Below, in pieces: positions 11,850-50,528 of a DNA stretch of 64,000 nucleotides (the first letter of the stretch is position 1; every line of letters begins with the position of its first letter). The position numbers were made by a program, and so were the translations under genes. The stretch is from contig JABWCF010000008.1 of assembly GCA_013359255.1 (NCBI GenBank), forward strand, positions 1 through 64,000. Reading direction: 5' to 3'. This stretch comes from Flavobacteriales bacterium (GTDB lineage Bacteria; Bacteroidota; Bacteroidia; Flavobacteriales_E; Vicingaceae). The notes under the pieces were generated by a model. The model did not search any database, had not been told where the DNA came from, and saw only the letters and a list, made by a program, of their open reading frames with translations.

Positions 11850-11894
11850 TTTAATAGGAATTTTCTATTTTTAAACTGTACTTTTTAAGGGGAT

Positions 11895-18785: not shown

Positions 18786-18920
18786 CCGGTAACGGTTTCG
18801 GGCTTGGCGAAGGTGGCGATTTTCACCACAAATGTTGATGCGGAGAACCAAAGTTTGATTAACCACAAATGTGTCTGCGGAGCACTGAACCGCCACTTTT
18901 GCCAAACCCGTGTTAGGTGC
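18786..18920 (-). repeat. attC-like hairpin 9
   Basis: Arms GGTTTCGGGCTTGGC and GCCAAACCC; GGTGGCG/CGCCAC inside. Cores are CCGGTAAC (left) and GTTAGGTGC (right, 18912-18920), the latter complementary to the cassette start GCACCTAAC at 21055. The interior repeats ACCACAAATGTTGATGCGGAG and lacks the usual ACTGTCA. Confidence 0.78.
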
Positions 18921-20220: not shown

Positions 20221-21012
20221 TTATTTAATAGCTTTTTCTCTCTCTTGTCCAATTTTATTAACTGTTTCATATAGTAAAGTAGCATTAACTAATAAACGGT
20301 CAAGTTCTTGTTCAAAAAACGTTTCAGTATGCTCATTCCATTTTTTAGGTGAATTATCAAGTTCTCTAAAACTTTTTGAGAGGGTAGCAATGTATTCTCT
20401 TTTCTGTGTGGCATCATTAATAAATATTGGAGGATATAAATCATACATCAACATCCAGTTTTTCGCAATTCTTGTTACTCGCCCATTTCCGTCAACAAAG
20501 GGGTGAATTCTGATTAACTCGTGATGAAAATAAATAGCTCTGATAATTGGGTTTGTTATGGCTTGCATTTGGTAAAAAAGTTCTCCAACTAATTGAGGAA
20601 CTATGTTTTGGTCTGGGCAAATATGACCTCCAATTTGCACTAATGTTTGTCTGTAACGATTTGGATGAATTGCATTGGTCTCCGGAGAAACTAATCGCAG
20701 AAGTTGAAATAGTTGTACTTCTTTTTGAAAATTATTGTGCAAAATTATTTCTTCAATCACAAAATCTAGTGACACTTTTAAATTTTTTAAATACACTGCA
20801 GCTTCCTCTTCGTTTTGGGCTTCCATTTGTGCATTTTTCAAACTAAGAAGTTCTTCGAGTTCTTGAACACTTGTCAAATAGGTGTCTAAAAGGTCGTCAT
20901 CCAAATGGTGTCGGCTATAAATAATTAGTCTATAAATTGACTTTACAAGATGGTCAATCTTATCAATTTTGGCTTGATTAATTTTTATTTCTTTAACTGG
21001 TAATAATTCCAT
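20221..21012 (-). CDS. Fic family protein
   Basis: Fic-domain enzyme, expected to transfer AMP from ATP to a protein hydroxyl. The catalytic motif HPFVDGNGRVTRIAKN (HxFx[D/E]GNGRxxR) is intact, preceded by RAIYFHHELIRIHPF. I place the start at 21012 (MELLPVKEIKINQ, 263 aa), because the upstream ATG at 21099 would read through the hairpin element. An N-terminal inhibitory motif ([S/T]xxxE[G/N]) is not obvious. First gene of a three-gene cassette; 8 bp separate it from the MscS-like gene. Confidence 0.85.
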   Translation of the reverse strand: MELLPVKEIKINQAKIDKIDHLVKSIYRLIIYSRHHLDDDLLDTYLTSVQELEELLSLKNAQMEAQNEEEAAVYLKNLKVSLDFVIEEIILHNNFQKEVQLFQLLRLVSPETNAIHPNRYRQTLVQIGGHICPDQNIVPQLVGELFYQMQAITNPIIRAIYFHHELIRIHPFVDGNGRVTRIAKNWMLMYDLYPPIFINDATQKREYIATLSKSFRELDNSPKKWNEHTETFFEQELDRLLVNATLLYETVNKIGQEREKAIK

Positions 21013-21054
21013 TTTGTCTTTGAATATATAATGTTGCTGTCGTCCGCCACGCTT

Positions 21055-21189
21055 GCACCTAACGGCTGAGGCTAAAAGCTGGCGGGCATTTAGGAGCACT
21101 TCACTGTCAACTTGCGATGAAGTTTATTAGATGCTCTGCCCTTCAATTTAGCACTTTCCGCCCGCTTGATTTTAGCCTTTGTTACCGTT
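21055..21189 (-). repeat. attC-like hairpin 8
   Basis: Arms GGCTGAGGCTAAAAGCTGGCGGGC and GCCCGCTTGATTTTAGCC. Cores are GCACCTAAC (left) and GTTACCGTT (right), the latter matching the cassette start at 23241 over 9 bp. The left minus-strand core GTTAGGT is the only one fitting the classical GTTRRRY. The interior has CACTTCACTGTCAA. It is 14 bp after the HNH gene. Confidence 0.78.
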
Positions 21190-21202: not shown

Positions 21203-21976
21203 TTAATTCAGTCTGTTGAATATTCCATTTGTTTTAATACTGTCAATAAGAACCTGTATTTCTAATGGTTTGTTCCAATTTCTATGTATCATCCTATGAC
21301 AATTTGAACAAACAGGAGTCAGATTTTGCAAAGCAATTTTTAACGTATTCTCAAGGTCTTCATCTTCATATTTAAAAATGGGCTTGGTATGATGTATTTC
21401 GATAAACCCCTTCCCAATCTGCTCTCCATAAAAATCATGAAAATTAAAATTACAACAATTACAAGAAATTTTCTCATTTTTAGTATAATATGCTATTGCA
21501 TAATTTCTCAAAGTACTTGAACGTTCATAAACTGCAACTTCCGTCAATTTTTTTGTCCCTTCTTGAATTATTATATTTTCATCAAATGTTTCAATCTTTT
21601 TCTTGTTTTGATTTTTTTCAACTTTTCTGAGATTTTCAGTCAAGTCCGTATATGAAAAATCGTTGATTAACAAATATTTCAAAATATCTTGATTGTTTTT
21701 CAAATGTGCTTTTCCGTCATTTGTAATTCCTACCTGCCCTGCATCATATTCAGCATAACCAAATCGTTCAAAAGTCCTATGTGCTATTAAATTCCTAACT
21801 TTTTGAGAGAATTTATCATCATTTCTTCCAGCTAAAATCCTTAAATCTTCACCTGTAGGTTTCATTATATCTCGAAGTTTTTGAATTAATTCGCTTGTTG
21901 AAATTACACCATTGTTTAAACTCATCAAATATAAAGAAGGAAGTATCAATTCGGTTTCTGTAATTCTCTTTGCCAT
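21203..21976 (-). CDS. HNH endonuclease (restriction partner)
   Basis: Predicted metal-dependent DNA nuclease of 257 aa. The C-terminal HNH domain has a zinc-type CNCCNFNF pair, the catalytic block [13 protein letters not shown] and the closing [13 protein letters not shown]. The N-terminal 130 residues ([26 protein letters not shown]...[23 protein letters not shown]) look like a winged-helix DNA-binding or specificity region found in HNH restriction enzymes. It follows an adenine methyltransferase by 3 bp in a two-gene cassette, so a Type II restriction-modification pair is the natural reading. Confidence 0.85.
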
Positions 21977-21979
21977 ATT

Positions 21980-23179
21980 TTAATAATTTGTAATTAATAA
22001 ATGCTCAACATCTTTGTCATTTCTATTCATAAAACTAACAAGATATTTTTTATCAAAAGATTGAATATTTAATCCTTTGTTTTTATAAAGTTCCAAAATG
22101 AAATCTGTATTTTTTATTATCATCATCCATTTTCCCTTACATTTTTTTATTAAATAATTTGCGAGTCTGACTTGGTCTTTTTTAGTAAATTCATTTTTGG
22201 CGTAGGTGCTAAATTCACTATCATAGGGAGGGTCTAAAAAAACAAAGTCATTGTTTTCAGGGATATATTGGTTAAAGAAATCTTCAAAATCTAAATTCTC
22301 TATCACAGTATTGTCAAGCAATGATTTTAGTTCCTTAGTTTTTAAATATTCAACTTTTTTAGAAAAGTTTTTGTTGTTGTATGCAATACCACCATAAGGA
22401 ACATTAAAATCCCCATTTGAATTATAACGAAACATACCACTGTATGCAAAATTCCTTATAAATAAAAAAATGGCAGATTTAAAAGCAATGTCAATTTTAT
22501 ATTTTGCTGTATTGTTGTAAATATGACGAAAATGCATATAAAATGCACTTTTTAAAGCAGTTTCTATGTTATCTAAAATATCATTATCCGGCAAAAGATA
22601 TTTTTCTTTTTCTAATTGCTTCATTCGCTTAATTTTGCGAATAAGATTTATTTTTATTTCTTTAATGAAATTTTCAATATTAAAATTGAATATTGATGAA
22701 AACATTCCATTAAATTGTTCCGCATGTTTTAATATAAACTCAAATAAAATATCTTTAAGTTTCGTTTCTTCAATTTTATCACTTGAGTATTTTTTGTATG
22801 TCTCAACGAAAAAAACATCATTTTTCTTTGCAACCAAAGTCAATAAATCCCAATTATGTATTATTTCATCTAATGCTTTAAAAAACAAAATTCTGTCGCC
22901 ATTTGTTATGCTACGATATAAAGAAATAAGTTCTTCAGATTTATCATTAACAAAATATTTATCAGCTTGTAGTGCTGTATAAACTGCTCCGCCACCAACA
23001 AATGGCTCATAATAATTTTTGAACTTTTCAGGCAGATTGGGTACAATGTATTTTAATTCTTGTTCTTTACCACCAGCCCATTTTAAAATAGGGTATAGTT
23101 TTCTCGTTTCAACGTAATTACCAATACCAAGCCCAATTTGGTTATATGTTTCAATAGGTTCTTCTACAGTATTTTTCAT
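21980..23179 (-). CDS. D12-class adenine-N6 DNA methyltransferase
   Basis: Dam-like enzyme that methylates adenine within a target site and would protect host DNA from the neighbouring HNH nuclease. The SAM-binding motif is LYPILKWAGGKEQELKYIVP followed by YYEPFVGGGAVY, and the catalytic motif IV is FVFLDPPYDSEF. PYGGIAYNNKNFS is the usual Dam region before it. At 399 aa it is longer than Dam (278 aa), with a large inserted helical target-recognition region (about residues 90-240). First gene of the cassette. Confidence 0.92.
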   Translation of the reverse strand: MKNTVEEPIETYNQIGLGIGNYVETRKLYPILKWAGGKEQELKYIVPNLPEKFKNYYEPFVGGGAVYTALQADKYFVNDKSEELISLYRSITNGDRILFFKALDEIIHNWDLLTLVAKKNDVFFVETYKKYSSDKIEETKLKDILFEFILKHAEQFNGMFSSIFNFNIENFIKEIKINLIRKIKRMKQLEKEKYLLPDNDILDNIETALKSAFYMHFRHIYNNTAKYKIDIAFKSAIFLFIRNFAYSGMFRYNSNGDFNVPYGGIAYNNKNFSKKVEYLKTKELKSLLDNTVIENLDFEDFFNQYIPENNDFVFLDPPYDSEFSTYAKNEFTKKDQVRLANYLIKKCKGKWMMIIKNTDFILELYKNKGLNIQSFDKKYLVSFMNRNDKDVEHLLITNY

Positions 23180-23240: not shown

Positions 23241-23375
23241 CGGTAACGTTTGGCGGCTTGGCGTAGTGGCGGATTTTTAGCACAAAAGTTCAATCGAAGA
23301 ACTGCACTTGAACCTGCCACAAAACTGTCATACGAAGGACTGCACCCGCCATTACGCCAAACCGCTGTTACCAGC
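23241..23375 (-). repeat. attC-like hairpin 7
   Basis: Arms GTTTGGCGGCTTGGCGTAGTGGCGG and CCGCCATTACGCCAAACCGC. Cores are CGGTAACG (left) and GTTACCAGC (right, 23367-23375), the latter matching the cassette start at 29543-29551 over 9 bp. The interior has TAGCACAAAAGTT and AAAACTGTCAT. Confidence 0.82.
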
Positions 23376-26738: not shown

Positions 26739-27593
26739 TTAAATGTAGCTTTCTAAAAACTTGATACTGTCTTTCTTGTCCTTAAAACTCGCTTCAATTC
26801 TGTCGCCTGTGTTGTATTTGATAATGATTTCGTATTTGCTTAACGGAAGTTTTGGTTTGTCTTCCGAATACTTTTTCAGAAAGTCAATTGCTTCGGTTAC
26901 GCTGTTTGAAATGTTCTCTTGTCCGTGAAGTGGTAAAATGATTATGCGTTCAATGAAACGAGAAACAGAATCGGAAAGTGAACTTAAAAATTCGTCAACG
27001 CCTTTTTTGTTCAGTTTCAATAATTCCTTGGCAACATCTTCTTTATTCGGCAACTTATTCCAACTCTCAATTTTCTTTCTGAAATCGGTTTCAGCTGTTT
27101 TCTCGTCAAACGCTGCATTGATTCCGAATTTTGCAAATGCTTTTACAACGGAATCATAAGGAAAATAAAGCACACCAAAACCAAGTGATTTCAATTGTGT
27201 CAATGCTCCTTCGGTAAACACACCTGCCAACACAACGCCAACAAATGGTGATGAACTTTTGTATTTGGTTGCCAATGGCAAAACTGCACTTTGTATTTCT
27301 TGTGCTTTGTTTCTTGAATGTTTAGTGTATCGTCTCCATGCGGATTCTATAAACGCAACAGGAACACCAATTTTGTTTTCTGTTCCGCCACGTTCAAGCA
27401 CAAAGTCTAAATCGTGTTTGTTGTTGTTGGCATCAGTCCAAGAAACTTTCTTTCCTGAACGTGCTTTGCGTTCACCTTTCTTGTCAAGGTAAAGTTTATG
27501 TTTTCGTGCAAACTTCTGTAAATGTGGCTCCAATGCCAATTCTAAAAGGTCGCCAATTATTTGTCCGAATTTATGTGCTGGTGATTCTGCCAT
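26739..27593 (-). CDS. putative Type II restriction endonuclease
   Basis: A 284-residue protein 3 bp after a DNA methyltransferase. HDLDFVLERGG...GVPVAFIESAWRRYTKHSRNKAQEI gives the D...E spacing of a PD-(D/E)XK nuclease, though Lys of the ExK pair is replaced (ESA). SPFVGVVLAGVFTEGALTQLKSLGFGVLYFPYDSVVKAF resembles the strand-rich core of REases that travel with TSPPY methyltransferases. The order controller, methyltransferase, nuclease supports the call. Recognition site unknown. Confidence 0.65.
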   Translation of the reverse strand: MAESPAHKFGQIIGDLLELALEPHLQKFARKHKLYLDKKGERKARSGKKVSWTDANNNKHDLDFVLERGGTENKIGVPVAFIESAWRRYTKHSRNKAQEIQSAVLPLATKYKSSSPFVGVVLAGVFTEGALTQLKSLGFGVLYFPYDSVVKAFAKFGINAAFDEKTAETDFRKKIESWNKLPNKEDVAKELLKLNKKGVDEFLSSLSDSVSRFIERIIILPLHGQENISNSVTEAIDFLKKYSEDKPKLPLSKYEIIIKYNTGDRIEASFKDKKDSIKFLESYI

Positions 27594-27596
27594 TTC

Positions 27597-28892
27597 TTAA
27601 CTATTTATCCAAAGTCTGCCTTCGTGTAAAGGAACTGTGTGTTTTCTATTTTTCCATTTAATATTTCTGTCTCTCAATTTTTCAAAAGAGTAATCGCTGA
27701 AACCTGCTGAAATTGCCAACTCGCCAAGCCATTTGTCAACAGGAACATAAATTCCGTAAGGTGCTGAATCACCAATCACAAAACACATTTTGCAGTTTTC
27801 ATTTGTTACTCGTCTTAAAGAATGAAACACATCTGCAAGGTCGTTGAAGTATGCTGCTATCATTAAATGATAATTCTTTTTACCACCATGTTTTAAGCGT
27901 TCTTCTTTAAGTGTTCCATACACTTCTAATAGTTCCGATTTAATTATGTCTAATCTCGGATTCTCTAGAATACTGTCAATGCTGTCACCAAGCCTTGAAA
28001 CATGTTGTGTGCAAGCTCTCACTAAATGTTTTCTCACATTGTCTTGTAAGTCAGCCCAACCGCTAATGTCGCCCCAAAAAGTCATTTCAAGTCTTGTTGC
28101 ATCAGCATAGTCGTAATTGTTAGCATAAGGAGGCGAAGTAATTACAAGGTCGCCCCAACCGTCAGGAATTGATTCAATGTTTCTTGCATCTTCATTTAAG
28201 ATAATTGAATCAACTACATTCTTGAAACGGTTTTGAGTTCGTTTCATATCTAGGTACATGTCGTTAACTTTTGCTTCAAAAGCAACGAAAGGGTCAATTA
28301 CTTTTGACTTAGTTTTGTTGGGCTGAATGTATTGCCATTGTGCCGTTCCAACTGGTGAGGTAGTTCTAAGAATTGCAGTAATGATAAACCAATTGAAGTT
28401 TTTAATTTCTTCATCTTGATTGGTGTCGAGCCAAGTTTGTTTAAGTGCTTCCAATTTTTGAATAGTTTCTAATGGATAGCAACTCATTATCAGTTTAGGA
28501 AATTCTGTTTTTGTTATCTTTTTACCCTTTGCTATTTTCAATAACGCAAGTGCTTCTTCTTTGAATTTATCGGCAGGATAATTCCAATTCAACTTTGCTT
28601 TTGCAATTCGATAAATATATGGGTGTGCTTCAACTCCATAAGATTCAACACCTGCAAATTCGCTTTCAATCAGAACAGTTCCTGAACCAGCAAATGGGTC
28701 TATAATTCTTGTCCGTCCGTTGCTTATTTCTTCTCGGATAAGTTCGCTTACCCAAGCTGCTGAAAATCCTGCTGTGTATCTATACCATTTGTGAATTGGC
28801 ATTTTCATGTTGTCGGCAAAAGTGGCGGTGTAATCCTGCTCAACTTTTACTTCATCAGGAAATAAGTCCAAGGTTTGTGTCTGATATGCCAT
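27597..28892 (-). CDS. amino-DNA methyltransferase (TSPPY type)
   Basis: Modifies adenine N6 or cytosine N4 in DNA. I start it at MAYQTQTLDLFPDE (28892, 431 aa), 7 bp after the stop of the regulator gene; the upstream ATG at 28943 would overlap that gene. The SAM motif IDPFAGSGTVLIES is at about residues 64-77 and the catalytic TSPPYANNYDY at about 252-262, so motif I precedes IV, as in alpha/gamma-type enzymes. RYTAGFSAAWVSELI precedes motif I. Protective partner of the nuclease next door. Confidence 0.9.
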   Translation of the reverse strand: MAYQTQTLDLFPDEVKVEQDYTATFADNMKMPIHKWYRYTAGFSAAWVSELIREEISNGRTRIIDPFAGSGTVLIESEFAGVESYGVEAHPYIYRIAKAKLNWNYPADKFKEEALALLKIAKGKKITKTEFPKLIMSCYPLETIQKLEALKQTWLDTNQDEEIKNFNWFIITAILRTTSPVGTAQWQYIQPNKTKSKVIDPFVAFEAKVNDMYLDMKRTQNRFKNVVDSIILNEDARNIESIPDGWGDLVITSPPYANNYDYADATRLEMTFWGDISGWADLQDNVRKHLVRACTQHVSRLGDSIDSILENPRLDIIKSELLEVYGTLKEERLKHGGKKNYHLMIAAYFNDLADVFHSLRRVTNENCKMCFVIGDSAPYGIYVPVDKWLGELAISAGFSDYSFEKLRDRNIKWKNRKHTVPLHEGRLWINS

Positions 28893-28899
28893 ATTCGTT

Positions 28900-29205
28900 C
28901 TATTTAGCTTTTTTGAGGTATTTGATTTCTTCTTCTGCCGCAATTAAAATGTCTTTTGCGTATTTCTCGTCTGCCAGTTGATAAGCAACTTGTTTGCTCA
29001 TAAATCTTATAACCAAATCTTTTTCATCCACCTTGAAAGTCTTGGCAATAAGTGGCAACATTTGTCGACTTACTGGTCGTTCTCCACGTTCCAATTTACT
29101 TAGTGTGCTTTGGTCTATGTCGAGTATTGCAGCAAGTTTGCGTAAAGGCATTTCTGCCTGTTCTCTTAACTGTCTGATGTAGTCGCCTAAATTTTCTGTT
29201 TGCAT
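28900..29205 (-). CDS. XRE-family regulator (controller protein)
   Basis: A 101-residue helix-turn-helix protein: GDYIRQLREQAEMPLRKLAAILDIDQSTLSKLERGERPVSRQMLPLIAKTFKVDEKDLV is a full XRE domain, followed by a charged helical tail. It is first in the restriction-modification operon, the position of Type II controller proteins that time nuclease expression. A 16-bp inverted repeat lies 15 bp before its start. Confidence 0.88.
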   Translation of the reverse strand: MQTENLGDYIRQLREQAEMPLRKLAAILDIDQSTLSKLERGERPVSRQMLPLIAKTFKVDEKDLVIRFMSKQVAYQLADEKYAKDILIAAEEEIKYLKKAK

Positions 29206-29542: not shown

Positions 29543-29676
29543 GCTGGTAACGGTCGAGTGTATGTGCCGTAAGGGATTGCGGGGCAGTATCCTGTCCACC
29601 GACACGAAAGTTTGAGCGGGCTACAATGCTTGAATACCCAATGAAACCCTTATGGCATATACACTTTGTTAGCGTT
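29543..29676 (-). repeat. attC-like hairpin 6, divergent interior
   Basis: Arms GTGTATGTGCCGTAAGGG and CCCTTATGGCATATACAC. Cores are GCTGGTAAC (left) and GTTAGCGTT (right). The interior differs from the main family (ATCCTGTCCACC replaces ACTGTCA), yet the matched-terminus rule holds on both sides. Confidence 0.75.
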
Positions 29677-29808: not shown

Positions 29809-31266
29809 TTAGGGCAGGGTTGCATATATTTTTAAGTCTTTCCATTCTGATAATTTATTTATATCGGTATGGTCAAATTTTCCATTTACAACAACAAATT
29901 TAGATTTCTTTCCTTTTTCTTCTTCAACTTCAATTACTTCAAATTTGTCTGCCCCATTGTCTTTGTATTTATTTGGCAAATCCTCAATCTCTGCTGTGAG
30001 TTTAACTTTCAAGGTTTTTGTCGAACTGTCTTTGATGTCAAACTTCTGATTAAAGAAAGAAAACAGGTCGGCAACTTTTACAATTTTTCTGCTATCCGTT
30101 TTCTTATCATCAAGTAAAACTTTCGTTGTGAGTTTTCTGTCTTTGAAAATCTGAATCTCTTTCAGGTCTTTCACATTAGCAACGTTAATTGCTTTTGACG
30201 GAAAATTTTCTTGCCAACTTTGATGAATCGTTGCAAGGTCTTTTGTCTGTTCGACATTTAACTTCACTCCAACTTCAAAACCATTTTCAAGTCCGCTTGC
30301 AATTAGGTTCGCAGTAAAAACAAAACCATCTTTGCCGTCAATCAGCAATGACTTAGAATGTGTGAGTGGATGAAAATAAATTTGAACACCTGCCTCCAAA
30401 AGTTCTTTCAGTTGTTCATTAAATTGCTTTTCAATAGGTCTGCAAAAAAGAGTTACGGAAATATTTTGTTTCGCTTTGTCAGCTATTGCTTTTACCAACT
30501 CAATGCTTTTGTCAATCTGAAAAGTAGAAAACGAAATTGTCAATTTCGCATTGTTCACAGCTGCTAACAAAGATTTATTAAGTGAATTGTTTTTGTTGTT
30601 TGGTGATGTCAGTAAAATGTTTTCAAGTTTCGGCAAACTGAATTTGTTTATTGGTTTCACTTTCGCAAACTCGTTGCTTGCTGATTGTTCGTCTGTTGAA
30701 TGTTCCCAAAAATGATAAACGAATACTTTAAAAAGTTCTTCACATTGTTCGCTGGATAACTCAACCGCTAACTCTGGATTTTTTGTAAATCCGTTTTCAG
30801 TAAAGTTGTTTGTGCAAACAAAACCTTTTGGTTTTGTTGTTGGGTCAATGAGAATGTATTTGCCGTGAAAGTTTTCTGCTGTCCTATGAATAAAATGATT
30901 TCTGAATTTGTTATCTAGCAATGCAATGTAGTTTGCTTTTATAAAGTCCTCTTCTTCTTCAATGGTTTCTTTTAGTCTTGCTTCTGCTGAACTTAATACA
31001 AAAACTTTTACGTCCCTTTCTTCAACTGCTTTTATTAATGTATCAATTATTTCAGTGTCTTGGATTAAGAATGACTGCAAGCATACCATTTGCTTTGCAC
31101 TGTCGACAGCCTTAATGATTTTTGACAACAAAACTTTTCCTTCTCCAGATTCAATCACCGATAGTTTTTCTTTTTCGGTAGATTTCCATCCCAAACCATT
31201 AGGTAATATTGGAAACTGAATTGTTCCTTCGTTAATAATATTTATTTCTTTAATTAAAGTTTTCAT
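29809..31266 (-). CDS. phospholipase D-family nuclease, two HKD motifs
   Basis: A 485-residue PLD-superfamily protein with both half-sites in one chain: FHGKYILIDPTT (HxKx4D) with the following FVCTNNFTENG, and THSKSLLIDGKDGFVFTANLIASG. No signal peptide, so it is cytoplasmic and more likely a nuclease than a lipase. The C-terminal region (after residue 360) is a charged extension of unknown fold. Last of three genes spaced by 2 bp; with the SF1 helicase it matches the helicase-plus-PLD make-up of Mokosh anti-phage systems. Confidence 0.82.
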   Translation of the reverse strand: MKTLIKEINIINEGTIQFPILPNGLGWKSTEKEKLSVIESGEGKVLLSKIIKAVDSAKQMVCLQSFLIQDTEIIDTLIKAVEERDVKVFVLSSAEARLKETIEEEEDFIKANYIALLDNKFRNHFIHRTAENFHGKYILIDPTTKPKGFVCTNNFTENGFTKNPELAVELSSEQCEELFKVFVYHFWEHSTDEQSASNEFAKVKPINKFSLPKLENILLTSPNNKNNSLNKSLLAAVNNAKLTISFSTFQIDKSIELVKAIADKAKQNISVTLFCRPIEKQFNEQLKELLEAGVQIYFHPLTHSKSLLIDGKDGFVFTANLIASGLENGFEVGVKLNVEQTKDLATIHQSWQENFPSKAINVANVKDLKEIQIFKDRKLTTKVLLDDKKTDSRKIVKVADLFSFFNQKFDIKDSSTKTLKVKLTAEIEDLPNKYKDNGADKFEVIEVEEEKGKKSKFVVVNGKFDHTDINKLSEWKDLKIYATLP

Positions 31267-31268
31267 TT

Positions 31269-32342
31269 CTAATAATTGAGATAGTCAATAGTTTCAAGTT
31301 TGGCAATTTGGTAAAAAGCATCTTTTCTTTCATAAAATATTTCCGAAAGTTCTTTTCTTTTTGGAACTTTCACTTTATAATGTAAAAGAATTGGCTTTGC
31401 CAATTCGCTAGTATAATCTTTAAAAATATTTTCGTCAAGAAAATAGTCATTCATATTCTTATAAAGCAACTCCCAATACCACAAATCAGCGTTTTCTTGG
31501 TTGCTTGGAATATGAGAAATACTTTCAAGTTCAACTTGGTTAAATTGATTTCTCCGAAAAATAGGTTTTAAGATTTTTACTTTTCTGTTGAATGAAAGAT
31601 TGTCTTTGTTAAATTCTGAAAGAATTGCTTTTTTGTCTTGGTCATATTCAAATTCTGAACAATTAAGAAGTAATTCCACTTGCAAAGAATTTTCCTCTAT
31701 TTCAAAATCAGTTTGAAATAAAAGTTGATTCTCTTTGCTAATTTTCATTACTGACTCATTTCCATTGGATTGTATTTCCAAATTGCAATTAACTGATTTT
31801 AATTGAAAGCATTTTTCTTCAACATCTTCAATCAAAACTTCTGTTTTATTGATGGAAAGAATTTGATTTTCGTATTGTCTGATTTCTCTTGGTGTTACTA
31901 AAATGTTGTTGTTCCTGTTGTCCTCTGCTCGTTCAACTTTTTCTGTTCTGATAATTCTCTGTTCTATTAAATTAGTTTTTGAAATATAAACATTATAAAC
32001 TCCTTTCTCTCCAATCCAAAATGATTTATCTGTTGCACTTTGCTGTCCTAAGTCAGTAAGAACATAATTAGCAAAAGTATTTTGATATGTTTGGCGGTAG
32101 CCAAACATATTGCTTTGCACTTTTTGCAAATATCCTTGTTGTTCTAAACGTTTCAATAAATTCTCACATGCTCTTACTGGTAATGAAGTCAAAAGATTTT
32201 GTTGCAATGAATTAGCAGTAACTTCTTCTTGCTCCTGAGCAAGGATTAAAACTGAAATAAAAGGACTTTGCTTTGTCTTTAGTTTTAATGCAAGTTCTAC
32301 TTGAAAAACGTCTATGTCTTCGGTTCGTTTAAGTACAATCAT
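31269..32342 (-). CDS. uncharacterised middle protein of helicase/PLD module
   Basis: A 357-residue protein I do not recognise. The N-terminal 110 residues (FQVELALKLKTKQSPFISVLILAQ...LPVRACENLLKRLEQQGYLQKV...YVLTDLGQQSA) read like a winged-helix domain with a closing beta-hairpin. The rest is beta-rich without clear catalytic residues. It is tightly packed between helicase and PLD genes (2 bp each side), so it is an integral third component, perhaps a DNA/RNA sensor or adaptor. Its presence separates this locus from two-gene Mokosh. Confidence 0.6.
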   Translation of the reverse strand: MIVLKRTEDIDVFQVELALKLKTKQSPFISVLILAQEQEEVTANSLQQNLLTSLPVRACENLLKRLEQQGYLQKVQSNMFGYRQTYQNTFANYVLTDLGQQSATDKSFWIGEKGVYNVYISKTNLIEQRIIRTEKVERAEDNRNNNILVTPREIRQYENQILSINKTEVLIEDVEEKCFQLKSVNCNLEIQSNGNESVMKISKENQLLFQTDFEIEENSLQVELLLNCSEFEYDQDKKAILSEFNKDNLSFNRKVKILKPIFRRNQFNQVELESISHIPSNQENADLWYWELLYKNMNDYFLDENIFKDYTSELAKPILLHYKVKVPKRKELSEIFYERKDAFYQIAKLETIDYLNY

Positions 32343-32344
32343 AT

Positions 32345-34831
32345 TTAATAGCGAATAGTTGATTCAAAATTAGTTGCTAAATCCCTTAGTGCTTTAAGTT
32401 TTGCTCTTTCTTTAAACCAAGGTCTGTTTCCAAACAATATAAGTTTATGCCTTGCTCTTGTAAGTGCAACATTCAGTCTATTCGGACTGTTGAAATGTGC
32501 ATCACGGGTGTTTTTTGTAAATCCAAGCAAAACTAAATCTGCTTCTTGTCCTTGAAATTTGTCAACCGTATAAAGATAAATGTCAGCATTGTGCTTATGA
32601 AACTTTGAAAAGAAACCTTGCTTGGTAATTCTTCTGATTCTTCTTCTCAACTCTGTTTCCTGATTCAAGTAGAAAGTCAAAACAGCAACTTCATATTTTT
32701 CTCCGTTTGGTTTTGGATTGTCTTTCGCCCAATCTAAAAACTTTACAAGTTCTCTTTCAATGTCGTTTGCTTCTGTGGGGTTAATTATTTTTTCACCTCG
32801 CTTATTTCCTGTTGAATCGTTATTGTAAATCCATTTTACAATTGGTTCATTCAAAGCATATTTCCAACCTCTGTTTTCTAAAACAGTGTTTGCGGATTTT
32901 AAATTATTTTCGTAAAAATTCTCTTTTGATGTCTTTGCAATGTCAGGGTGCATCCTGTGTTGATAAGTGAGTGAAACAAACCTACTCGTTTTGTAATGAG
33001 GGTGAAACCCGTCACTCAAAACTCTGTTGCTTGCTTGTCCGCTACCTTTACCAATTCCGTTTTGCAAAAGTTCAAGTATGGAAGGAAATACAAGCCGCTT
33101 GATTTGATTGATGTCGTCAAGAATTTTATTTGGGATGAGATAGTTTAATTCTCTATCAATGTTTTCAAACTCTGTCCCTGCATTTCTGAAACTGAAACTT
33201 TGATTCAGTCGGCTTGAAACCATTTCACTCCATTCTTCTTGTCGGCTGTCAAACAAATAGGGTAGTGGATTTTTGTATGACTGCCTTGCATATTCTTGTC
33301 TGTATCGCTGTTGCAAACTGCTTGTTTCTCCATTGATGAAAATGCTTTTCACCTGAATGTTGTTTGAAAGAAGTTGTTTCACTCGGCTTTCATTTTTTGC
33401 AATTACAACATCAGCAGAATTTATTTTTGCAATGTTGATTTCGTTTACTTCCCAATTTTCTTCAACTGTTTCAACTACCAACTCTCTGCTTTCTACAAAT
33501 TGTTTTTCGGTGTTTGGGTTTTGGTCTGTAAAAAAAACTTTGAGGCAATCTTCAAATTTCTTGTCGTCTAATTTTGATTTGAGTTCAAACTGTTTGACTA
33601 TTGATTTTTGAATTTCAGCATCCAACATTGTTGCGATGTTTTCTGAAACATAATCGTTCTCTACATATGGCGAAAGTTGTTTTACATCACCAACCAAAAT
33701 CCATTTCTTGGCATGAAGTGCTGGAACAATGAAGTCAGAGAAAGTAACCTTTGATGCTTCGTCAACAATAAGCACATCAAAACTTGCTCCTTGCTTATTG
33801 GCTCTGATGTCGGGGTGTTGCAAAATTCCAATCATTGTTCCTGCAACAAGATTTGCAGAATCAAGAATGATTTTTTCTATCGGGTCAATTTCTTTTTCCT
33901 CTTTCTTGTAAAGGTTTGTCAAAAGGAACTTTTGACTTTCAAGTTTCTGATTTTTTTTCAGATGCTTTTCAATATCTGCTTTATAAGTCGCAACAAGGTT
34001 GCGAAGTAAATATGGTCTTACATTTTCTTTAACTGGTTTTTCAAAACGACTTATTCTTACTGGCACAATTTCCTTATCGCAAATTTCTTTGTATCTCCCT
34101 TTTATTCTCTCAATCACATTGTCAATTGCTGCATGAGTTGCAGAACAAAGTAAAACTCGTTTGCCTTCTGCTGTGTACTGCATTATCAATTCTATAATTG
34201 TTGTTGTCTTGCCTGAACCTGGCGGTCCCTCCATTAATGCAAAATCTTTTGTCTGCAAACCTTTGAAAACAAATTCTCTTTGCTCCTCAACTCCGTCTTT
34301 TGTTTCGTCTGTGAGAATTGTCCAAGGTAATTCCTTCTCGTAAAAACTCTGTTGCCAAAACCTGTTTTCGGGAAAACCGAATAATTCTAAAAGCGGTTGA
34401 TGCTCTTTAAGTGGTCGGTGACGAAGATTGTCAAGTGCTCTTTTCTGTTGTTCAAGTTGGTAAGTGTCGGGCTTTAAATAAATCGTGTCGCCTTGAATGT
34501 CGGTTTCAAGTGTTATGTAATTTTCATCTTCGTTTTGGTCTTCAATTTCAATAGTAACTTCTCGGTTAAAATTTCGCTTTTGGTCAAATATGCTTTTTGT
34601 ATTTTCGTTGAAAAGCAATTCAATTGCTTTTTCAGATTTCTTGTTTGAAGGAATTTCTGGGATATATCTTGTTTCTCCTTCTACAACTGTTTTTGTTACT
34701 TTTATTGAAAGGGTTTCTCTTTTCAATAATTCAATAGATTTATTTATAAAGTCAGTATAACGCCTAATGTCATAATCTGCATTAAGTAAAACTTTGTTGT
34801 CAACGCCTGTATTTAAGTGAAACAAATTCAT
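32345..34831 (-). CDS. SF1 (COG1112/DNA2-like) helicase
   Basis: An 828-residue superfamily 1 helicase. Motif I is EGPPGSGKTTTIIELI, motif II VLIVDEASKVTFSD, motif III LVGDVKQLSPYV; the QHRMHP block, then KFQGQEADLVLLGFT (V) and NVALTRARHKLILFG (VI) follow. This set is typical of the Upf1/DNA2 clade acting on RNA or DNA. The first 190 residues are a family-specific N-terminal region. It heads a three-gene operon with an unknown protein and a PLD nuclease. Anti-phage defence is the likely role. Confidence 0.9.
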   Translation of the reverse strand: MNLFHLNTGVDNKVLLNADYDIRRYTDFINKSIELLKRETLSIKVTKTVVEGETRYIPEIPSNKKSEKAIELLFNENTKSIFDQKRNFNREVTIEIEDQNEDENYITLETDIQGDTIYLKPDTYQLEQQKRALDNLRHRPLKEHQPLLELFGFPENRFWQQSFYEKELPWTILTDETKDGVEEQREFVFKGLQTKDFALMEGPPGSGKTTTIIELIMQYTAEGKRVLLCSATHAAIDNVIERIKGRYKEICDKEIVPVRISRFEKPVKENVRPYLLRNLVATYKADIEKHLKKNQKLESQKFLLTNLYKKEEKEIDPIEKIILDSANLVAGTMIGILQHPDIRANKQGASFDVLIVDEASKVTFSDFIVPALHAKKWILVGDVKQLSPYVENDYVSENIATMLDAEIQKSIVKQFELKSKLDDKKFEDCLKVFFTDQNPNTEKQFVESRELVVETVEENWEVNEINIAKINSADVVIAKNESRVKQLLSNNIQVKSIFINGETSSLQQRYRQEYARQSYKNPLPYLFDSRQEEWSEMVSSRLNQSFSFRNAGTEFENIDRELNYLIPNKILDDINQIKRLVFPSILELLQNGIGKGSGQASNRVLSDGFHPHYKTSRFVSLTYQHRMHPDIAKTSKENFYENNLKSANTVLENRGWKYALNEPIVKWIYNNDSTGNKRGEKIINPTEANDIERELVKFLDWAKDNPKPNGEKYEVAVLTFYLNQETELRRRIRRITKQGFFSKFHKHNADIYLYTVDKFQGQEADLVLLGFTKNTRDAHFNSPNRLNVALTRARHKLILFGNRPWFKERAKLKALRDLATNFESTIRY

Positions 34832-35016: not shown

Positions 35017-35150
35017 CGCTAACGTTTTGGCGCTTGGCGCAGTGGCGGATTTCGGAGCACAAAACTGTCAATACACCACATAAGTTGATGCGAGGTAGAA
35101 TGTTCAATTAACCACGTCACCCGCCATTGAGCCAAACGCCTGTTAGCGGC
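35017..35150 (-). repeat. attC-like hairpin 5
   Basis: Arms CGTTTTGGCGCTTGGCGCAGTGGCGG and CCGCCATTGAGCCAAACGCC. Cores are CGCTAACG (left) and GTTAGCGGC (right). The interior GGAGCACAAAACTGTCAA...TTAACCACGTCACCC is almost the same as in hairpin 12. It lies 19 bp after the VWA-like gene. Confidence 0.82.
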
Positions 35151-38066: not shown

Positions 38067-38202
38067 GCCACTAACGGTTCACAGCTTGCCGCAGTGGCGG
38101 ATTTACCACTACAAAACTGTCCCCATGCAACAAAGATAATAGAAAGCAGAAAACTTTCTGTTTGCACGAAAACCGCCATTGAGGCAAGGTGTTGTTATGC
38201 CC
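38067..38202 (-). repeat. attC-like hairpin 4
   Basis: Arms CAGCTTGCCGCAGTGGCGG and CCGCCATTGAGGCAAGGTG. Cores are GCCACTAAC (left) and GTTATGCCC (right, 38194-38202), the latter complementary to the cassette start at 45447-45455 over 9 bp across 7.2 kb. The interior has CACTACAAAACTGTCC. Confidence 0.8.
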
Positions 38203-45446: not shown

Positions 45447-45581
45447 GGGCATAACGGTTTGCAAATTGCCGCAGGTGGGCTTTTTAGCACTTATTTTGCT
45501 ACGAAGAAGAAAGTTTGATTAAGCACTTTTCTGTCCTCCGAAGCACTGCACCCCCGCTTGAGGCAATTTGCTGTTAGCGTT
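45447..45581 (-). repeat. attC-like hairpin 3
   Basis: Arms GGTTTGCAAATTGCCGCAGGTGGGC and CCCCGCTTGAGGCAATTTGC. Cores are GGGCATAAC (left) and GTTAGCGTT (right). The interior has TAGCACTT, AAAGTTTGATTAAGCAC and TTTTCTGTCC. It is followed on the plus strand by a flank (TTTCGTTGTTCATT) shared with hairpin 6. Confidence 0.8.
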
Positions 45582-45637: not shown

Positions 45638-46117
45638 TTATGCAGTCCCGGCAATGGCTCCAGACATAACTGCTATGTAATAGTTTGAAGCATAAACCCC
45701 AAGTAAAATAAATAAACTGTCTTGCGGTTTATTCTCATATGAAATGTCATAATTGTAATTGAATTTACCCCAATTAAATTTCGGGTCAAATTGAATTAAT
45801 CTTTCTTCGTCTTTGTTTTCAATTACATATTTGTTGTGAAATGCACCCTTTGCCTTAAAAACAAATTCCTGTCCGTCTTGAAAGGTTATAACTATATGTC
45901 CTTTCCAATTCATTTTTAAATTGGCTACTTCTGTTTTATTTTTTGTCACGGTTATACTTGTCCCGAAAAAACCAACTGGTTTGATTTCGTAACTGTCGGA
46001 ATTTGTCAATGTAATTTTAGCATTGTAAGAAAACAAATTCTTATAGGTCAGTTGTCCTAATGGTTGTCCTTTTTCGGTCAACTGAAATGTTCTTTTGTCG
46101 GTGCATTTTACTTCCAT
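45638..46117 (-). CDS. small beta-rich protein, possibly tubby/LURP-like
   Basis: A 159-residue protein with strongly alternating beta pattern (FQLTEKGQPLGQLTYKNLFSYNAKITLTNSDSYEIKPVGFFGTSITVTKNKTEVANLKMNWKGHIVITF) and a C-terminal hydrophobic helix (SLFILLGVYASNYYIAVMSGAIAGT). This recalls the tubby C-terminal/LURP-one fold, a beta-barrel around one hydrophobic helix, but no motif proves it. Single-gene cassette. Function unknown. Confidence 0.55.
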   Translation of the reverse strand: MEVKCTDKRTFQLTEKGQPLGQLTYKNLFSYNAKITLTNSDSYEIKPVGFFGTSITVTKNKTEVANLKMNWKGHIVITFQDGQEFVFKAKGAFHNKYVIENKDEERLIQFDPKFNWGKFNYNYDISYENKPQDSLFILLGVYASNYYIAVMSGAIAGTA

Positions 46118-46182: not shown

Positions 46183-46367
46183 CGCTAACGTTTTCAGGCT
46201 ACACGCAGTGCGGAATAAATAACCACAAAACTGTCTTGAGCGAAAACCTATATTAAATGTACTGAACTTAATCGCAAATGCAAAAAATAATGCGCAGAGC
46301 GCACCTTTAAAAAATGCATTTGCAACTTGCTGGAACTCCGCATTGCGTGTAGCCTGTGTTACCAGTA
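46183..46367 (-). repeat. attC-like hairpin 2, long form
   Basis: At 185 bp the longest element. Arms CAGGCTACACGCAGTGCGGA and TCCGCATTGCGTGTAGCCTG pair almost perfectly (19 of 20). Cores are CGCTAACG (left) and GTTACCAGTA (right), the latter matched by 46917-46926 over 10 bp. An inner sub-hairpin (AAATGCAAAAAATAATGCGC against GCGCACCTTTAAAAAATGCATTT) extends it. Confidence 0.82.
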
Positions 46368-46388: not shown

Positions 46389-46880
46389 TCAGGATTTTTT
46401 TAGTTTGTCAGCTATTTTAAAGAGTAATTCTATTCTTCGAAGTCCAGTTTTTTTCTGATAATCAAATTCTTCAAGATGATAATTACAAAGTTCTGCTAAG
46501 TCTGGAAATTTCAATTTTACCTTTTCAAGTACCTTTATATTTTCTTCTCTGTCTTGTCTTGGGAACCAGTCTTGCCTTAAGAGAATAATTTGAACTTTTG
46601 TTTTGTTGTCAGACGTAATCCAGTCGTGCACTAATTCTTCAAGTCTCGTTCCATTGTCTGGAGTAGACCAAACAAGAACATCAAGAAGAGTTGCTACTTT
46701 TGATAAGTCCGTGTCTTTTGTTATTGAATTGTAAATTATTTCAGCGAAGTCCTCATTAAAGTAACGGTCAACAAAGATGTCGGTTTGGTCAAAGCCTTGC
46801 TGATTAGCTCGACTAACTCCCGAGTCTTCGTAATAAAAGCCGTCTAAAATTTTGTCTACAAGTTCAAAGTCTGAAGTCAT
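46389..46880 (-). CDS. small helical protein of unknown function
   Basis: A 163-residue acidic, helix-rich soluble protein (DFELVDKILDGFYYEDSG..., LSKVATLLDVLVWSTPDNGTRLEELVHDWITSD, TGLRRIELLFKIADKLKKS). No signal peptide, membrane segment or catalytic motif. The size and helical layout recall immunity or adaptor proteins, but there is no toxin beside it. Single-gene cassette, stop 22 bp before its hairpin, leader about 40 bp. Confidence 0.6.
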   Translation of the reverse strand: MTSDFELVDKILDGFYYEDSGVSRANQQGFDQTDIFVDRYFNEDFAEIIYNSITKDTDLSKVATLLDVLVWSTPDNGTRLEELVHDWITSDNKTKVQIILLRQDWFPRQDREENIKVLEKVKLKFPDLAELCNYHLEEFDYQKKTGLRRIELLFKIADKLKKS

Positions 46881-46916: not shown

Positions 46917-47054
46917 TACTGGTAACGTTTTGCAGCTACACGCAGGTGGCGATTTCGAAGCACTTCACTGTCATTCAAGCACAATCTTTGATAGAAGTAC
47001 AAAGCTTGATTTAACCACTGAACCGCCACTTGCGTGTAGGTGCTGTTGGTGGCA
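46917..47054 (-). repeat. attC-like hairpin 1 (of the beta-lactamase cassette)
   Basis: Arms GCAGCTACACGCAGGTGGCG and CGCCACTTGCGTGTAGGTGC. Cores are TACTGGTAAC (left) and GTTGGTGGCA (right, 47045-47054), the latter exactly complementary to 48004-48013, the outer edge of the array. The interior has AGCACTTCACTGTCATT and CACAATCTTTGATAGAAG. It starts 4 bp after the gene's stop. Confidence 0.83.
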
Positions 47055-47057
47055 GTT

Positions 47058-47963
47058 TTATTTTACTTTCTTTATGAAATAGTCCCAAGTTACTTTTGAA
47101 ATATCAGAAATTATCTTTTCGTTTGTTTCATTGTTTTCGGTTGATTTCGTCACAAAAACACTAATAAAATAATGTTGTCCATTTGGCAAAAACACAACTC
47201 CAATGTCGTTTACGGCTTCTGTTAAACCTGCTTTGTTTGCTCCCGAAGTACCAGTTTTGTGTGCAACAATAGCGTTTTTGGGTAATTGTCCCTTTAGTCT
47301 TGCTTTACCCGTTTTGGTTCCCTTCATAGTTTTCCAAATAAAGTCGTAGCTTTTTTTAGACAGTAGTTTTGTTTTGTTATAATAAAACTTTGACAAGACT
47401 TCGTTTGCTGCTTTTGGTGTCGTCCAATTTTCAAATTGTAAATCCCAATTCGCCTGTTGTACCTCTTCATTAATTTTTATTGATACGTCTTTAATATTAT
47501 TTTTAATGAAGTATTCTTCAACTACTTCAGGTCCGCCAATTAGTTTCAATAAAAGGTCACAGCCTACATTGTCACTTTGAGAAACAGTGTATTCCAGAAT
47601 TTTTGAAATTGGCAAAATCGTTCCGTTAGGATATTTGTCTCTAATCGGACTATAAAGATTTGGTATCAAGTCTTTCTTTTCAATTTTAATTTTTTGATTT
47701 AGGGAAAAGTTTCCTTGGTCAATTTGTGATAAGACTGCAAGTGCAATATGAAACTTAAATACACTTTGCAATGGGAAATGTCTATCTCCATTTATTGTTA
47801 AAGTGTCTTTTCCATTGTCGCCAATAATTGCAACACCGACAATAGCGTTCTTTGTCGAAACAATTTGTTCTATTTTTTGTCTTAATGAATTTACCGTTTG
47901 AGCAGATGTCTGGCAAGAAATAAATAAAAATAGTAAAGTTGTTAAGTGTAATGTTTTAATCAT
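47058..47963 (-). CDS. class A beta-lactamase (A2-like)
   Basis: Serine beta-lactamase, 301 aa, hydrolysing beta-lactams in the periplasm. The signal region LLFLFISCQTSAQ could be cleaved or lipidated at Cys17. Catalytic motifs are complete: SVFK (Ser67-Lys70), SDN (130-132), an omega-loop Glu in INEEVQQANWDLQFENW and HKTGTSG (Lys236-Gly238). The omega region and spacing resemble the subclass A2 (CfxA/CblA/PER) enzymes common in Bacteroidetes rather than TEM. First cassette of the array and a single-gene unit, with stop 4 bp from its hairpin. Spectrum cannot be told from sequence. Confidence 0.92.
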   Translation of the reverse strand: MIKTLHLTTLLFLFISCQTSAQTVNSLRQKIEQIVSTKNAIVGVAIIGDNGKDTLTINGDRHFPLQSVFKFHIALAVLSQIDQGNFSLNQKIKIEKKDLIPNLYSPIRDKYPNGTILPISKILEYTVSQSDNVGCDLLLKLIGGPEVVEEYFIKNNIKDVSIKINEEVQQANWDLQFENWTTPKAANEVLSKFYYNKTKLLSKKSYDFIWKTMKGTKTGKARLKGQLPKNAIVAHKTGTSGANKAGLTEAVNDIGVVFLPNGQHYFISVFVTKSTENNETNEKIISDISKVTWDYFIKKVK

Positions 47964-48003
47964 TTTTGTCTGTTTGGTTATGTTTTAGGGTGTCCGCAAA
48001 AAT

Positions 48004-48013
48004 TGCCACCAAC
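48004..48013 (-). other. upper boundary of the cassette array
   Basis: TGCCACCAAC here is the exact complement of the right core of hairpin 1 (GTTGGTGGCA at 47045). By analogy with integrons the junction lies between 48013 (G on the minus strand) and 48012 (TT...). The 80 bp beyond, up to the YfhO stop at 48096, hold a small CCGATT/AATCGG stem at 48025-48041 and would be the attI-equivalent or insertion site. Confidence 0.6.
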
Positions 48014-48095
48014 TTGTTTATACCCGATTAAAAAAATCGGCAAGTATGTTCAATTTTAGATGTATTGCCGCCATACAAAAAATATTTTTTACATA

Positions 48096-50528
48096 TTATT
48101 TCTCTTTTAATTCTTTATACAAAGCAAATCCAACAAAAGCAAAAAGCAATATGCTGCTTGCTAAGCCAATATTTTCTCCTGTACGGTACACTTTCGGTTC
48201 AAACCTAAATTCTATTTTATGGTTTCCGGCAGGTATTCGCATAGCCCGCAACACATAATTGGCTCTAAAGTATTCGGCAGGTTTATCGTTTATAAAAACA
48301 TTCCAGCCTTTATCGTAGTGTATTTCTGAAAAAATAGCAATTTGCTCGTTAGCAGCACTAGATTGGTAAATGAGTTTGTTGGGAGCATACGAGGTTAAAA
48401 CAATTTTTGCCATGCTATCTTCTTTAAAAGAAAATTCGGAAAGCATGCCCTCGAACCGTTTGTCTATAACAGCAGAATCTTTTAAATTAAATTTTTCCAT
48501 GCCGGTAATTTCTTCATCGGCATTGGCTGCTACTTTATAACCCTTAATAAACCATGCATTTCCAAATGCTTCGGGGTTAAATTGTGCTACCGGTTGTTTG
48601 TTGTTATCGGGCACAATAAAGTATTTTGTATTCAGCATATTTAGCACTTGCATATTGTTTTTGGCAATATGAAAATCAATAAGTTCCTGATAGCGTTTTA
48701 ATTTGGCTCCATGGTATCCTCCAATAGATTTATGAAAGTACGAAGTGCTGGCATCGGTAAAAGCATTACGGGTTACGTTATACACGCGGAAATTGGGATC
48801 GGTGTCTTCTAATATTTTAAGATTGGCACTGGTAAGCGGATAGGGTTTTTCCAGTTCCCTCTTCGATACGTAATTCTCTTTGTTAAGATAACGTGTATTT
48901 ACCGACCATAAATCGATAAGCAAAAGAAGAGCTACCACATAAAAAGCGTGTGTAGTTTTAATTTTGTTTTTCCATATTAAAAACAAAAGTCCAATTCCTG
49001 CCACAATAAAAAATAAACTTCTCAACACATCGGCATTTAAAATAGCTCTACGTGCTTTTTCGAGTTCGGAAAACACTTCGGGTATGGCATTTTCCGGAAA
49101 GCCTGCCGATTTAAGCATTTGCGAATATTGTTCGGTTTGCCCTTCGCCAAAAAAATCGGTAAACAATCCGGGCATTAAGTAATATAAAATGCAAATGCCA
49201 AGCGAAATACCTGCTCCGTAGTATATTTTCTTTTTGTGTGTGTTAAACAAGGTGGGTTTATCGGCCAACTGTTGCAAGGTAAGTATGGCCATAAACGGAA
49301 TGGTAAATTCGGCAATAATTAAAATCATAGAAACGGTGCGGAATTTATTATATCCCGGAACGTAGTCGAGAAAAAAATCGGTTAATGGCATAAAGTTTTT
49401 ACCCCAAGCCAGCATTAGAGAAAGTACGGTAGATGCAATAAGCCACCATTTAAGTGGTCCTTCTAAAATAAATAACCCTATAAAAAATAAAAGCATCACA
49501 AAAGCTCCGGCATACACGGGTCCCGAGGTAAAGGGCTGGTCGCCCCAGTATTGGTCCATTTGGGCAATAACCTGCCTTTGTTGTGGTGCTATTTTTTCCA
49601 GCACATTTTCGTGCTCTTTTCCAATGGGTCCATTACCTCCTCCTTTTACATTGGGTATGATTAAAGAAAAGGTTTCGCTTATTCCATAGCTCCACGAGGT
49701 GGCATAATCTTTATCTAAGCCAGTGGTTTTATTTTCTTTGTTAAAGGTTAATTCAGAAGGTCCGCGTGTGGTATATTTCCCGTATTCGTAAGTAGCCAAT
49801 ATGTTTCCCATATTAGGGCCAATGGCTAATAGGGCTGCAATGGCAAGAAAACCGGAAGCTTTGGCAAAGTGTACCAGTTTTTTTTCTTTCCACGAAAAAT
49901 AGAAATGGATACCACCAAAAATTAATAGTATTAAAAGCAAATAGTAAGTTATTTGCAAGTGATTGGCTGAAATTTGAAACGATAATGCTAGTGCGGTAAG
50001 GGCACCTCCCGATAAATAATTTCCTTTAAAGGTGTGTAGCACTCCGGCCACCACTAAAGGCAGATAGGCCATGGCGTAGGCTTTGGTAATATGCCCTGCT
50101 TCAATAATAATAAAAAAGTAACTGGAAAAAGCATAGGCAATGGCTCCTGCTACCGCCAACACAGGATGTACTCTGTGCATTACCAGTAAAATGTAAAAGC
50201 ATAGCATGGCGGTAAAAATAATAGTAGATGGATACGGAACTATTTTTCGTATAAACAAACCTATGCGTTGTACCCAGTTATTGTAATATTTAACCGAAAT
50301 TTGATAGGCCGGCATTCCGCCAAACATGGAGTTTGTCCAAAGGGCTTCTTCTCCGGTTTTCTCTCTAAAGTCGTTTATTTCTTTAGCCATTCCTTCGTAA
50401 TTCAGCATATCGCCCATACGTATTTGTTTGCCTTGTAACAGAGGATTAAAATAGGCAATAGTGATGGCAAAAAATACCAATACGGCTACAAAGTGAGGTA
50501 GTAATTTTTTTAGAATATTCTTTTTCAT
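48096..50528 (-). CDS. YfhO family membrane protein
   Basis: An 810-residue integral membrane protein of the YfhO family. The N-terminus KLLPHFVAVLVFFAITIAYFNPLLQGKQIRMGDMLNYEGMAKEI is typical, followed by about a dozen membrane helices, a soluble extracytoplasmic part (DPNFRVYNVTRNAFTDASTSYFHKSIGGYHGAKLKRYQEL...MLNTKYFIV) and a final beta-rich piece ending in one TM (IGLASSILLFAFVGFALY). The family is linked to lipid-linked sugar transfer onto envelope polymers. Last chromosomal gene before the array. Confidence 0.88.
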   Translation of the reverse strand: MKKNILKKLLPHFVAVLVFFAITIAYFNPLLQGKQIRMGDMLNYEGMAKEINDFREKTGEEALWTNSMFGGMPAYQISVKYYNNWVQRIGLFIRKIVPYPSTIIFTAMLCFYILLVMHRVHPVLAVAGAIAYAFSSYFFIIIEAGHITKAYAMAYLPLVVAGVLHTFKGNYLSGGALTALALSFQISANHLQITYYLLLILLIFGGIHFYFSWKEKKLVHFAKASGFLAIAALLAIGPNMGNILATYEYGKYTTRGPSELTFNKENKTTGLDKDYATSWSYGISETFSLIIPNVKGGGNGPIGKEHENVLEKIAPQQRQVIAQMDQYWGDQPFTSGPVYAGAFVMLLFFIGLFILEGPLKWWLIASTVLSLMLAWGKNFMPLTDFFLDYVPGYNKFRTVSMILIIAEFTIPFMAILTLQQLADKPTLFNTHKKKIYYGAGISLGICILYYLMPGLFTDFFGEGQTEQYSQMLKSAGFPENAIPEVFSELEKARRAILNADVLRSLFFIVAGIGLLFLIWKNKIKTTHAFYVVALLLLIDLWSVNTRYLNKENYVSKRELEKPYPLTSANLKILEDTDPNFRVYNVTRNAFTDASTSYFHKSIGGYHGAKLKRYQELIDFHIAKNNMQVLNMLNTKYFIVPDNNKQPVAQFNPEAFGNAWFIKGYKVAANADEEITGMEKFNLKDSAVIDKRFEGMLSEFSFKEDSMAKIVLTSYAPNKLIYQSSAANEQIAIFSEIHYDKGWNVFINDKPAEYFRANYVLRAMRIPAGNHKIEFRFEPKVYRTGENIGLASSILLFAFVGFALYKELKEK

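Follow-up and report, generated by a model that had tools for sequence, protein, structure and literature searches.

Class 1 and sedentary integrons gather units made of a gene and a hairpin, with complementary unit ends and a G/TT crossover, into arrays that have an attI head, hold their genes in one orientation toward attC and include resistance cassettes. The insertion specific to IntI integrases has been described as essential to integron function (PMC8138268), and one complete Bacteroidetes integron was reported by IntegronFinder 2.0. A CALIN is made up of several attC sites that have no integrase adjoining them; at least two attC and no integrase nearby are required. The blaVEB-1 cassette is known from proteobacterial class 1 integrons; the veb1 attC, which is long and divergent, functions with IntI1, though badly, and performed better once part of another attC had been put into it (PMC3518468). 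A study of cassette origin based on attC sites does not name blaVEB in its main text and has no Bacteroidota model (PMC8352920). Finally, the xerD-tet(X3) module found on Acinetobacter plasmids is spread by ISCR2/ISVsa3 (PMC9784759).

The stretch of DNA analysed here (the window; positions 1 to 64,000 of contig JABWCF010000008.1, assembly GCA_013359255.1, from a Flavobacteriales bacterium of the Vicingaceae) is 64,000 nucleotides long and belongs to a draft genome of 34 contigs. It shares with class 1 and sedentary integrons all the features of units and arrays named above. However, the integrase of the system has no IntI insertion and its transcription runs toward attI, the attC-like sites are about 130 bp long, their outer boxes of 9-10 bp (compared with 7 bp in the usual integron) are not GTTRRRY, and attI arrays without an integrase occur on several contigs of one genome. 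Like a CALIN, the locus contains several attC without an adjoining integrase but, unlike a CALIN, it has retained an attI-like head, and the genome encodes a matching integrase at another place. We conclude that a beta-lactamase gene in the window is the first mobile cassette of an integron-like array of a kind widespread in Bacteroidota. To the fuller reading, in which the array is of integron type and is most likely served in trans by the recombinase encoded on another contig (C31), we assign a probability of about 0.88.

The array spans 36 kb (11850-48012, minus strand), and both of its flanks align to a congener, G001. The listed cassette genes of at least 150 aa are all on the minus strand, the larger ORFs extending from 12039 to 47963, and the hairpin is placed after the gene or genes of a unit. 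A covariance model (R1), built from an alignment (A3) of ten window hairpins, matched 13 window hairpins, every one on the minus strand, including three that were not used in building it: 13345-13476 (E=2e-24), the weaker 16334-16456 (E=9e-10) and the long-looped hairpin of cassette 2 at 46183-46364 (E=1e-8). Apart from the hairpin of the beta-lactamase cassette, the other R1 matches lie at 45449-45579, 38069-38200, 35017-35148, 29545-29674, 23241-23373 (91% identical to a hairpin of an Empedobacter plasmid), 21057-21187, 18787-18918, 14350-14481 and 11894-12025, the last of the array. The whole genome contains 29 R1 hairpins on six contigs; 13 of them lie in the window, whose contig encodes no tyrosine recombinase, and the locus thereby fulfils the definition of a CALIN.

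The hairpins are imperfect inverted repeats bounded by AAC...GTT, as is attC. The R box consensus, RYYYAAC / GTTRRRY, is not met (GTTACCA and GTTGGTG occur, for example), with only AAC and GTT holding, and no Rfam family matched above its gathering score in the window. Over 83 distinct hairpin sequences, 93.7% of the pairs are formed, compared with 56.7% in shuffles and 31-41% when the sequences are slid, and 17 of the 18 stem pairs show changes on both sides; these covariation counts lean towards the stem because the alignment was fitted to that structure. For 35 successive cassettes of two genomes, we compared the start of a cassette's own hairpin with the end of the hairpin before it: in 27, the two are complementary over 10 bp with no more than one mismatch, and good matched ends are missing from the remaining eight. 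Such matched ends are the pattern of integron cassettes, both ends of which derive from one circular attC.

Anti-phage-type genes are common among the cassettes between 12039 and 47963. They include a type II methylase with a restriction enzyme (26739-28943), a D12 methylase with HNH (21203-23179), a Mokosh-like helicase with a PLD protein (29809-34831), a GmrSD/NsnA-like protein (14514-16277) and a Fic protein (20221-21099). Between 38196 and 45449, a single cassette interval of 7.4 kb encodes, among others, a two-component system and a formate/nitrite transporter; it could be one cassette with several genes, or else reflect an insertion.

The gene at 47058-47963 (minus strand) is a complete ORF of 301 aa that matched Pfam Beta-lactamase2 in a profile search (E=9e-41) and scored above the cut-off of NCBIfam NF012099, the subclass A2 of class A beta-lactamases (378.3 bits against 320). 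An initial annotation, made from the sequence alone, had called it a complete A2-like beta-lactamase with exact 10-bp matched ends, and both statements hold. The 5' matched end, GTTGGTGGCA, is located at 48004-48013 (minus strand) and its inverted copy, the 3' matched end (R''), at 47045-47054 (plus strand); beyond one mismatch, four more bases match (GTTGGTGGCA-A-TTTT / GTTGGTGGCA-G-TTTT). A third copy in the window, at 51036, is unrelated, and there are no further ones there; 0.07 copies are expected by chance, and three were reached in none of 100 shuffles. The attC-like hairpin of the unit (46920-47051, minus strand) is more stable than its shuffles (z=-3.1) and obtains 127.4 bits with R1, a score that is not independent, the hairpin being one of the ten training sequences. 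All of S67-x-x-K, SDN130, E166 and KTG236 are present in the alignment with VEB-1; these are the catalytic motifs, and hydrolysis of beta-lactams by the enzyme is predicted from sequence alone.

Two details of the initial annotation need amendment. The gene was said to end 4 bp before its hairpin, and its stop codon is actually 3 bp from the matched end. The cassette had been given as 47058-48013, which includes the gene and the correct edge and omits the cassette's own hairpin; the recombination unit indicated by the matched ends and the hairpin runs from TT... to ...G at 46926-48012 (minus strand, 1087 bp), with the crossover between the G at 48013 and the TT at 48012-48011. On the same strand, cassette 2 has matched ends GTTACCAGTA and encodes a 163-aa protein (46389-46880), and cassette 3 a 159-aa protein (45638-46117); no family was found for either.

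Upstream of the array, the chromosomal flank encodes a YfhO-family membrane protein (48096-50528, minus strand), a gene that is present in 21 of 21 family genomes and is 97% identical in G001. The two flanks align to G001 with 93.5% identity on the yfhO side and 93.1% on the other. On the yfhO side the homology runs up to ...TATAAACAAG/TT and breaks exactly at G/TT (the same stop, again in comparison with G001, has been read as ...AATCGGGTATAAACAAG/TT), which bears out the chromosomal edge that the initial annotation had set at 48013. Immediately after G/TT, the first cassette is the beta-lactamase in the window and a different gene in G001. The same locus comprises 36 kb and 13 hairpins in the window genome versus 2.5 kb and two hairpins in G001, and no cassette gene is common to the two arrays. 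By this comparison of two congeners, the crossover lies at G/TT, as is expected of an integron. The annotation was right to place the beta-lactamase at the head of the array, proximal to attI; that it is also the newest cassette, as was further claimed, is backed only by the differing first cassette in G001. The structure of the units, the precise insertion point and the exchange of the first cassette are thus demonstrated, in so far as comparison of genomes can do so.

The head of the array is an attI-like site (TATGGCGGCAATACATCTAAAAT...TTTTTTAATCGGGTATAAACAAG; 48013-48075, minus strand) common to the G001 locus and to contig C31 of the same genome. No integrase adjoins it in the window array. 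On C31, the 63-bp sequence, diverged in its middle, recurs 3' of a 382-aa tyrosine recombinase with an open ORF, where this intact copy lies about 100 bp past the recombinase stop and shortly before the contig end. The motif CGRGTATAAACAAGTT is found near other array heads of the family, in the richest genomes far above a reversed-pattern control, and some of its single matches are clearly not attI. Among 38 attI-like sites, from family genomes (including L116, L117, L123, L124, L129 and L135-L139) and integrase loci, 20 contain the box TAnnTTTG, of the Bacteroidota -7 type, compared with about three in mononucleotide shuffles; in many sites it is positioned about 85-102 bp before the crossover, and the window site has no exact match to it. 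It is possible that this box belongs to an outward cassette promoter. Some sites (L117, L123, L129) also contain an inverted repeat, e.g. GGTTATCTACC...GGTAGATAACC, 20-60 bp before the crossover, possibly a recombinase binding site.

The lack of an adjoining integrase might also mean that the array is a relic, which exchanged cassettes in the past and whose attI no longer recombines. Decay is indeed seen in the R' of the last hairpin (GTAAGC), and matched ends are gone from some cassettes. Nevertheless, we consider this unlikely, given the open integrase ORF on C31 with an intact attI after it and a cassette content that is wholly different between two close relatives.

The window enzyme is a cousin of VEB rather than a VEB: the two share 58-60% amino acid identity, the score with the VEB family model NF000390 is below the cut-off (383 against 670 bits), and in a tree the enzyme falls outside the VEB clade. 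This identity and the separate clade rule out that VEB descends directly from the window gene. The attC of blaVEB-1 from class 1 integrons belongs to the same covariance family, with a match to R1 at E=5e-8 and, with a wider model of 85 hairpins from which VEB had been left out, at 1e-8, whereas all the other attC sites of six class 1 integron regions failed to reach E=10; these regions and one Pseudomonas genome formed the comparison set outside Bacteroidota. The ends of the VEB cassette (GTTAGCGGTA-A-TTT / GTTAGCGGTA-G-TTT) show the same long match as the window unit, 10 bp followed by a mismatch and more. Furthermore, in a Bacteroidota-labelled metagenome-assembled genome (MAG; L165), blaVEB comes directly after an attI of Bacteroidota type and a 3' remnant of the recombinase (RAELRFAQELLGHNISKTTEIYTHI...). 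This cassette and that of the class 1 integron differ at 2 of 1070 bases, and the transfer must therefore be recent. From the attC type and the home context we infer that VEB originated in Bacteroidota and was transferred from there. The reverse, that blaVEB arose elsewhere and the MAG acquired it from a class 1 integron, is compatible with so recent a transfer and with the contig coming from a single MAG. We nonetheless find it doubtful, considering that the attC and the long matched ends are of Bacteroidota type, that none of the other attC in the six class 1 integron regions scores, and that the MAG contains four further such hairpins and the Pseudomonas genome only the VEB one.

The strong tyrosine recombinases of the window genome are only XerC, XerD and the C31 recombinase, with two weak matches on contig C8. 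For the C31 protein the best match is NF040815 (225.8 bits, cut-off 220); the NCBI name of this model, 'site-specific tyrosine recombinase/integron integrase', is broad, and XerA-like proteins fit it too. The protein remains below the cut-off of the integron-integrase model TIGR02249 (205.8 against 265), and the insertion specific to IntI1 is not present in its alignment. We make no claim on the deeper kinship of these integrases because the branches of IntI1 and of XerC/XerD in the tree are very long. Twenty loci with a close C31 homologue were compared in other Bacteroidota, with similar amounts of sequence available on both sides: 68 hairpins lie downstream on the integrase strand, none on the opposite strand and none upstream, and it is the 3' end of the integrase gene that faces attI. 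The first cassette begins 72-129 bp past the integrase stop in 18 of the 20 loci, usually preceded by TATAAACAA or a near form; in these and on contig C31, an attI beside the integrase at the start of the first cassette, as integrons require, is found. On a Chryseobacterium plasmid, integrase, first-cassette start and hairpins together form a complete unit. In a sample of 296 Bacteroidota genomes the covariance model detected hairpins in 142. Of the genomes that have a close integrase, 28 of 29 contain hairpins, versus 113 of 266 others (p=4e-9, uncorrected for kinship).

Near hairpins on Myroides and Chryseobacterium plasmids (L036, L038, L146), we also observed a pair of a tyrosine recombinase and an IS91-type transposase, which may use the hairpins or attI-like ends. 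As a driver of the system the Myroides pair was rejected: its recombinase is a more distant relative (154 bits) and is not needed. IntI was likewise rejected, for want of IntI-grade matches: none above E=1e-40 was found in 46 family genomes, the control giving no match at that threshold either. A wider form of this proposal is that a canonical IntI visiting on plasmids, or the host XerC/XerD, moves the cassettes and the C31-type recombinase is merely nearby. IntI1 can recombine foreign attC, the veb1 site badly (PMC3518468), and XerC and XerD are strong recombinases of the genome. This proposal still seems to us distinctly improbable, in view of the missing IntI (with the silent control) and of the C31 family, which in 18 of 20 loci adjoins attI directly and which co-occurs with the hairpins.

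When one window hairpin was compared with plasmids by blastn, mostly Bacteroidota plasmids were matched. On Riemerella NZ_CP073240 (L035), units with lnu(I), RelE-HTH, tet(X), estT, a phosphotransferase and aph(3') all consist of a gene, the hairpin and matched ends of 9-10 bp, while a blaOXA unit on the same plasmid has the hairpin and not the matched ends. The conjugative plasmid NZ_CP072214 of Bacteroides xylanisolvens (L039) carries aadS, ere(D) and tet(X2) in the same form. The suggestion of the initial annotation that the system can carry resistance genes in Bacteroidota is borne out by these plasmids. Further Bacteroidota plasmid loci with resistance units include L037 and L036, with ends mostly of 9-10 bp. 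In the Acinetobacter xerD-tet(X3) module (L147, 6226-7100; L148), XerD is a truncated homologue of the C31 recombinase with 42% identity, followed by a TAnnTTTG box and then by the tet(X) cassette start GTTATGTGCCATTTTT, which is identical to the end of the tet(X) cassette in Riemerella and Bacteroides; the attC of the module, unlike those of the window, is cut short by the ISCR2 region. The module has the look of a Bacteroidota unit of integrase, attI and first cassette that has been truncated. As with the structure of the units, the co-location of integrase, attI and array and the existence of plasmid-borne resistance cassettes are established by comparison.

The window beta-lactamase was not found in the 36 other family genomes searched, and among 60 genomes there was one match, with 51% identity and no adjoining hairpin. 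A genome scan recovered 21 loci with relatives of up to 76% identity, mostly in Bacteroidota, with three in Acidobacteriota-labelled MAGs (L155, L156, L157). The Aquimarina relative sits between two hairpins and that of a Bacteroidia MAG closely follows one, whereas several others (e.g. L150, L151, L154) have no recognised hairpin nearby. Like the window gene, L155 and L156 retain TAAAACTGC..AAC past the stop, and these may be scars; no hairpin matches were obtained in the genomes of L155, L156 and L157. Since some relatives lie beside hairpins and others are without a trace of them, this beta-lactamase family lives both inside and outside cassettes. That the window gene is simply an ordinary chromosomal beta-lactamase next to a chance or regulatory repeat, for which one could cite the relatives without a recognised hairpin and the frequency of subclass A2 in Bacteroidota chromosomes, can practically be discarded given its absence from all 36 other family genomes, the different first cassette at the same base in the congener, the 29 hairpins of the genome and the 36-kb and 2.5-kb arrays of the two congeners. 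The finding that would have refuted the initial annotation, a gene fixed at the locus with no hairpins elsewhere, is not made: hairpins are present in 38 of 46 family genomes.

On the reading we prefer, that of a first cassette in an integron-type array, a cassette would consist of a gene and one attC-like hairpin of about 130 bp, and in the circular cassette the two ends would pair through their complementary outer boxes. A tyrosine recombinase would then join the hairpin to the attI-like site at the G/TT crossover, so that new units would arrive at the attI end. The integrase would belong to a Bacteroidota family without the IntI insertion, its 3' end towards attI, and the window array, having none of its own, would most likely be served in trans by the 382-aa recombinase of C31. 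No excision or insertion has been observed, and recombination by the system is an inference; the action of the recombinase, the folding of single-stranded attC, the continuing activity of the array and the resistance conferred by the beta-lactamase are likewise inferred. The system is not described in the open-licence literature searched; preprints (bioRxiv) were outside the search, and a prior description is not excluded.

If a recombinase of the C31 type drives these hairpins, integron-like capture of cassettes exists without the IntI insertion. We think it rather probable, though far from settled, that Bacteroidota have an integron kind of their own, spread through the phylum and using a non-IntI recombinase, and that the blaVEB and tet(X) cassettes of proteobacterial pathogens had their original home in it; if this is true, surveys based on IntI would not see it. 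Because the same type of cassette end is attached to blaVEB and to tet(X), our results suggest that an overlooked system supplied resistance genes that were later to reach human pathogens, and the system offers a testable origin for blaVEB and likewise for tet(X).
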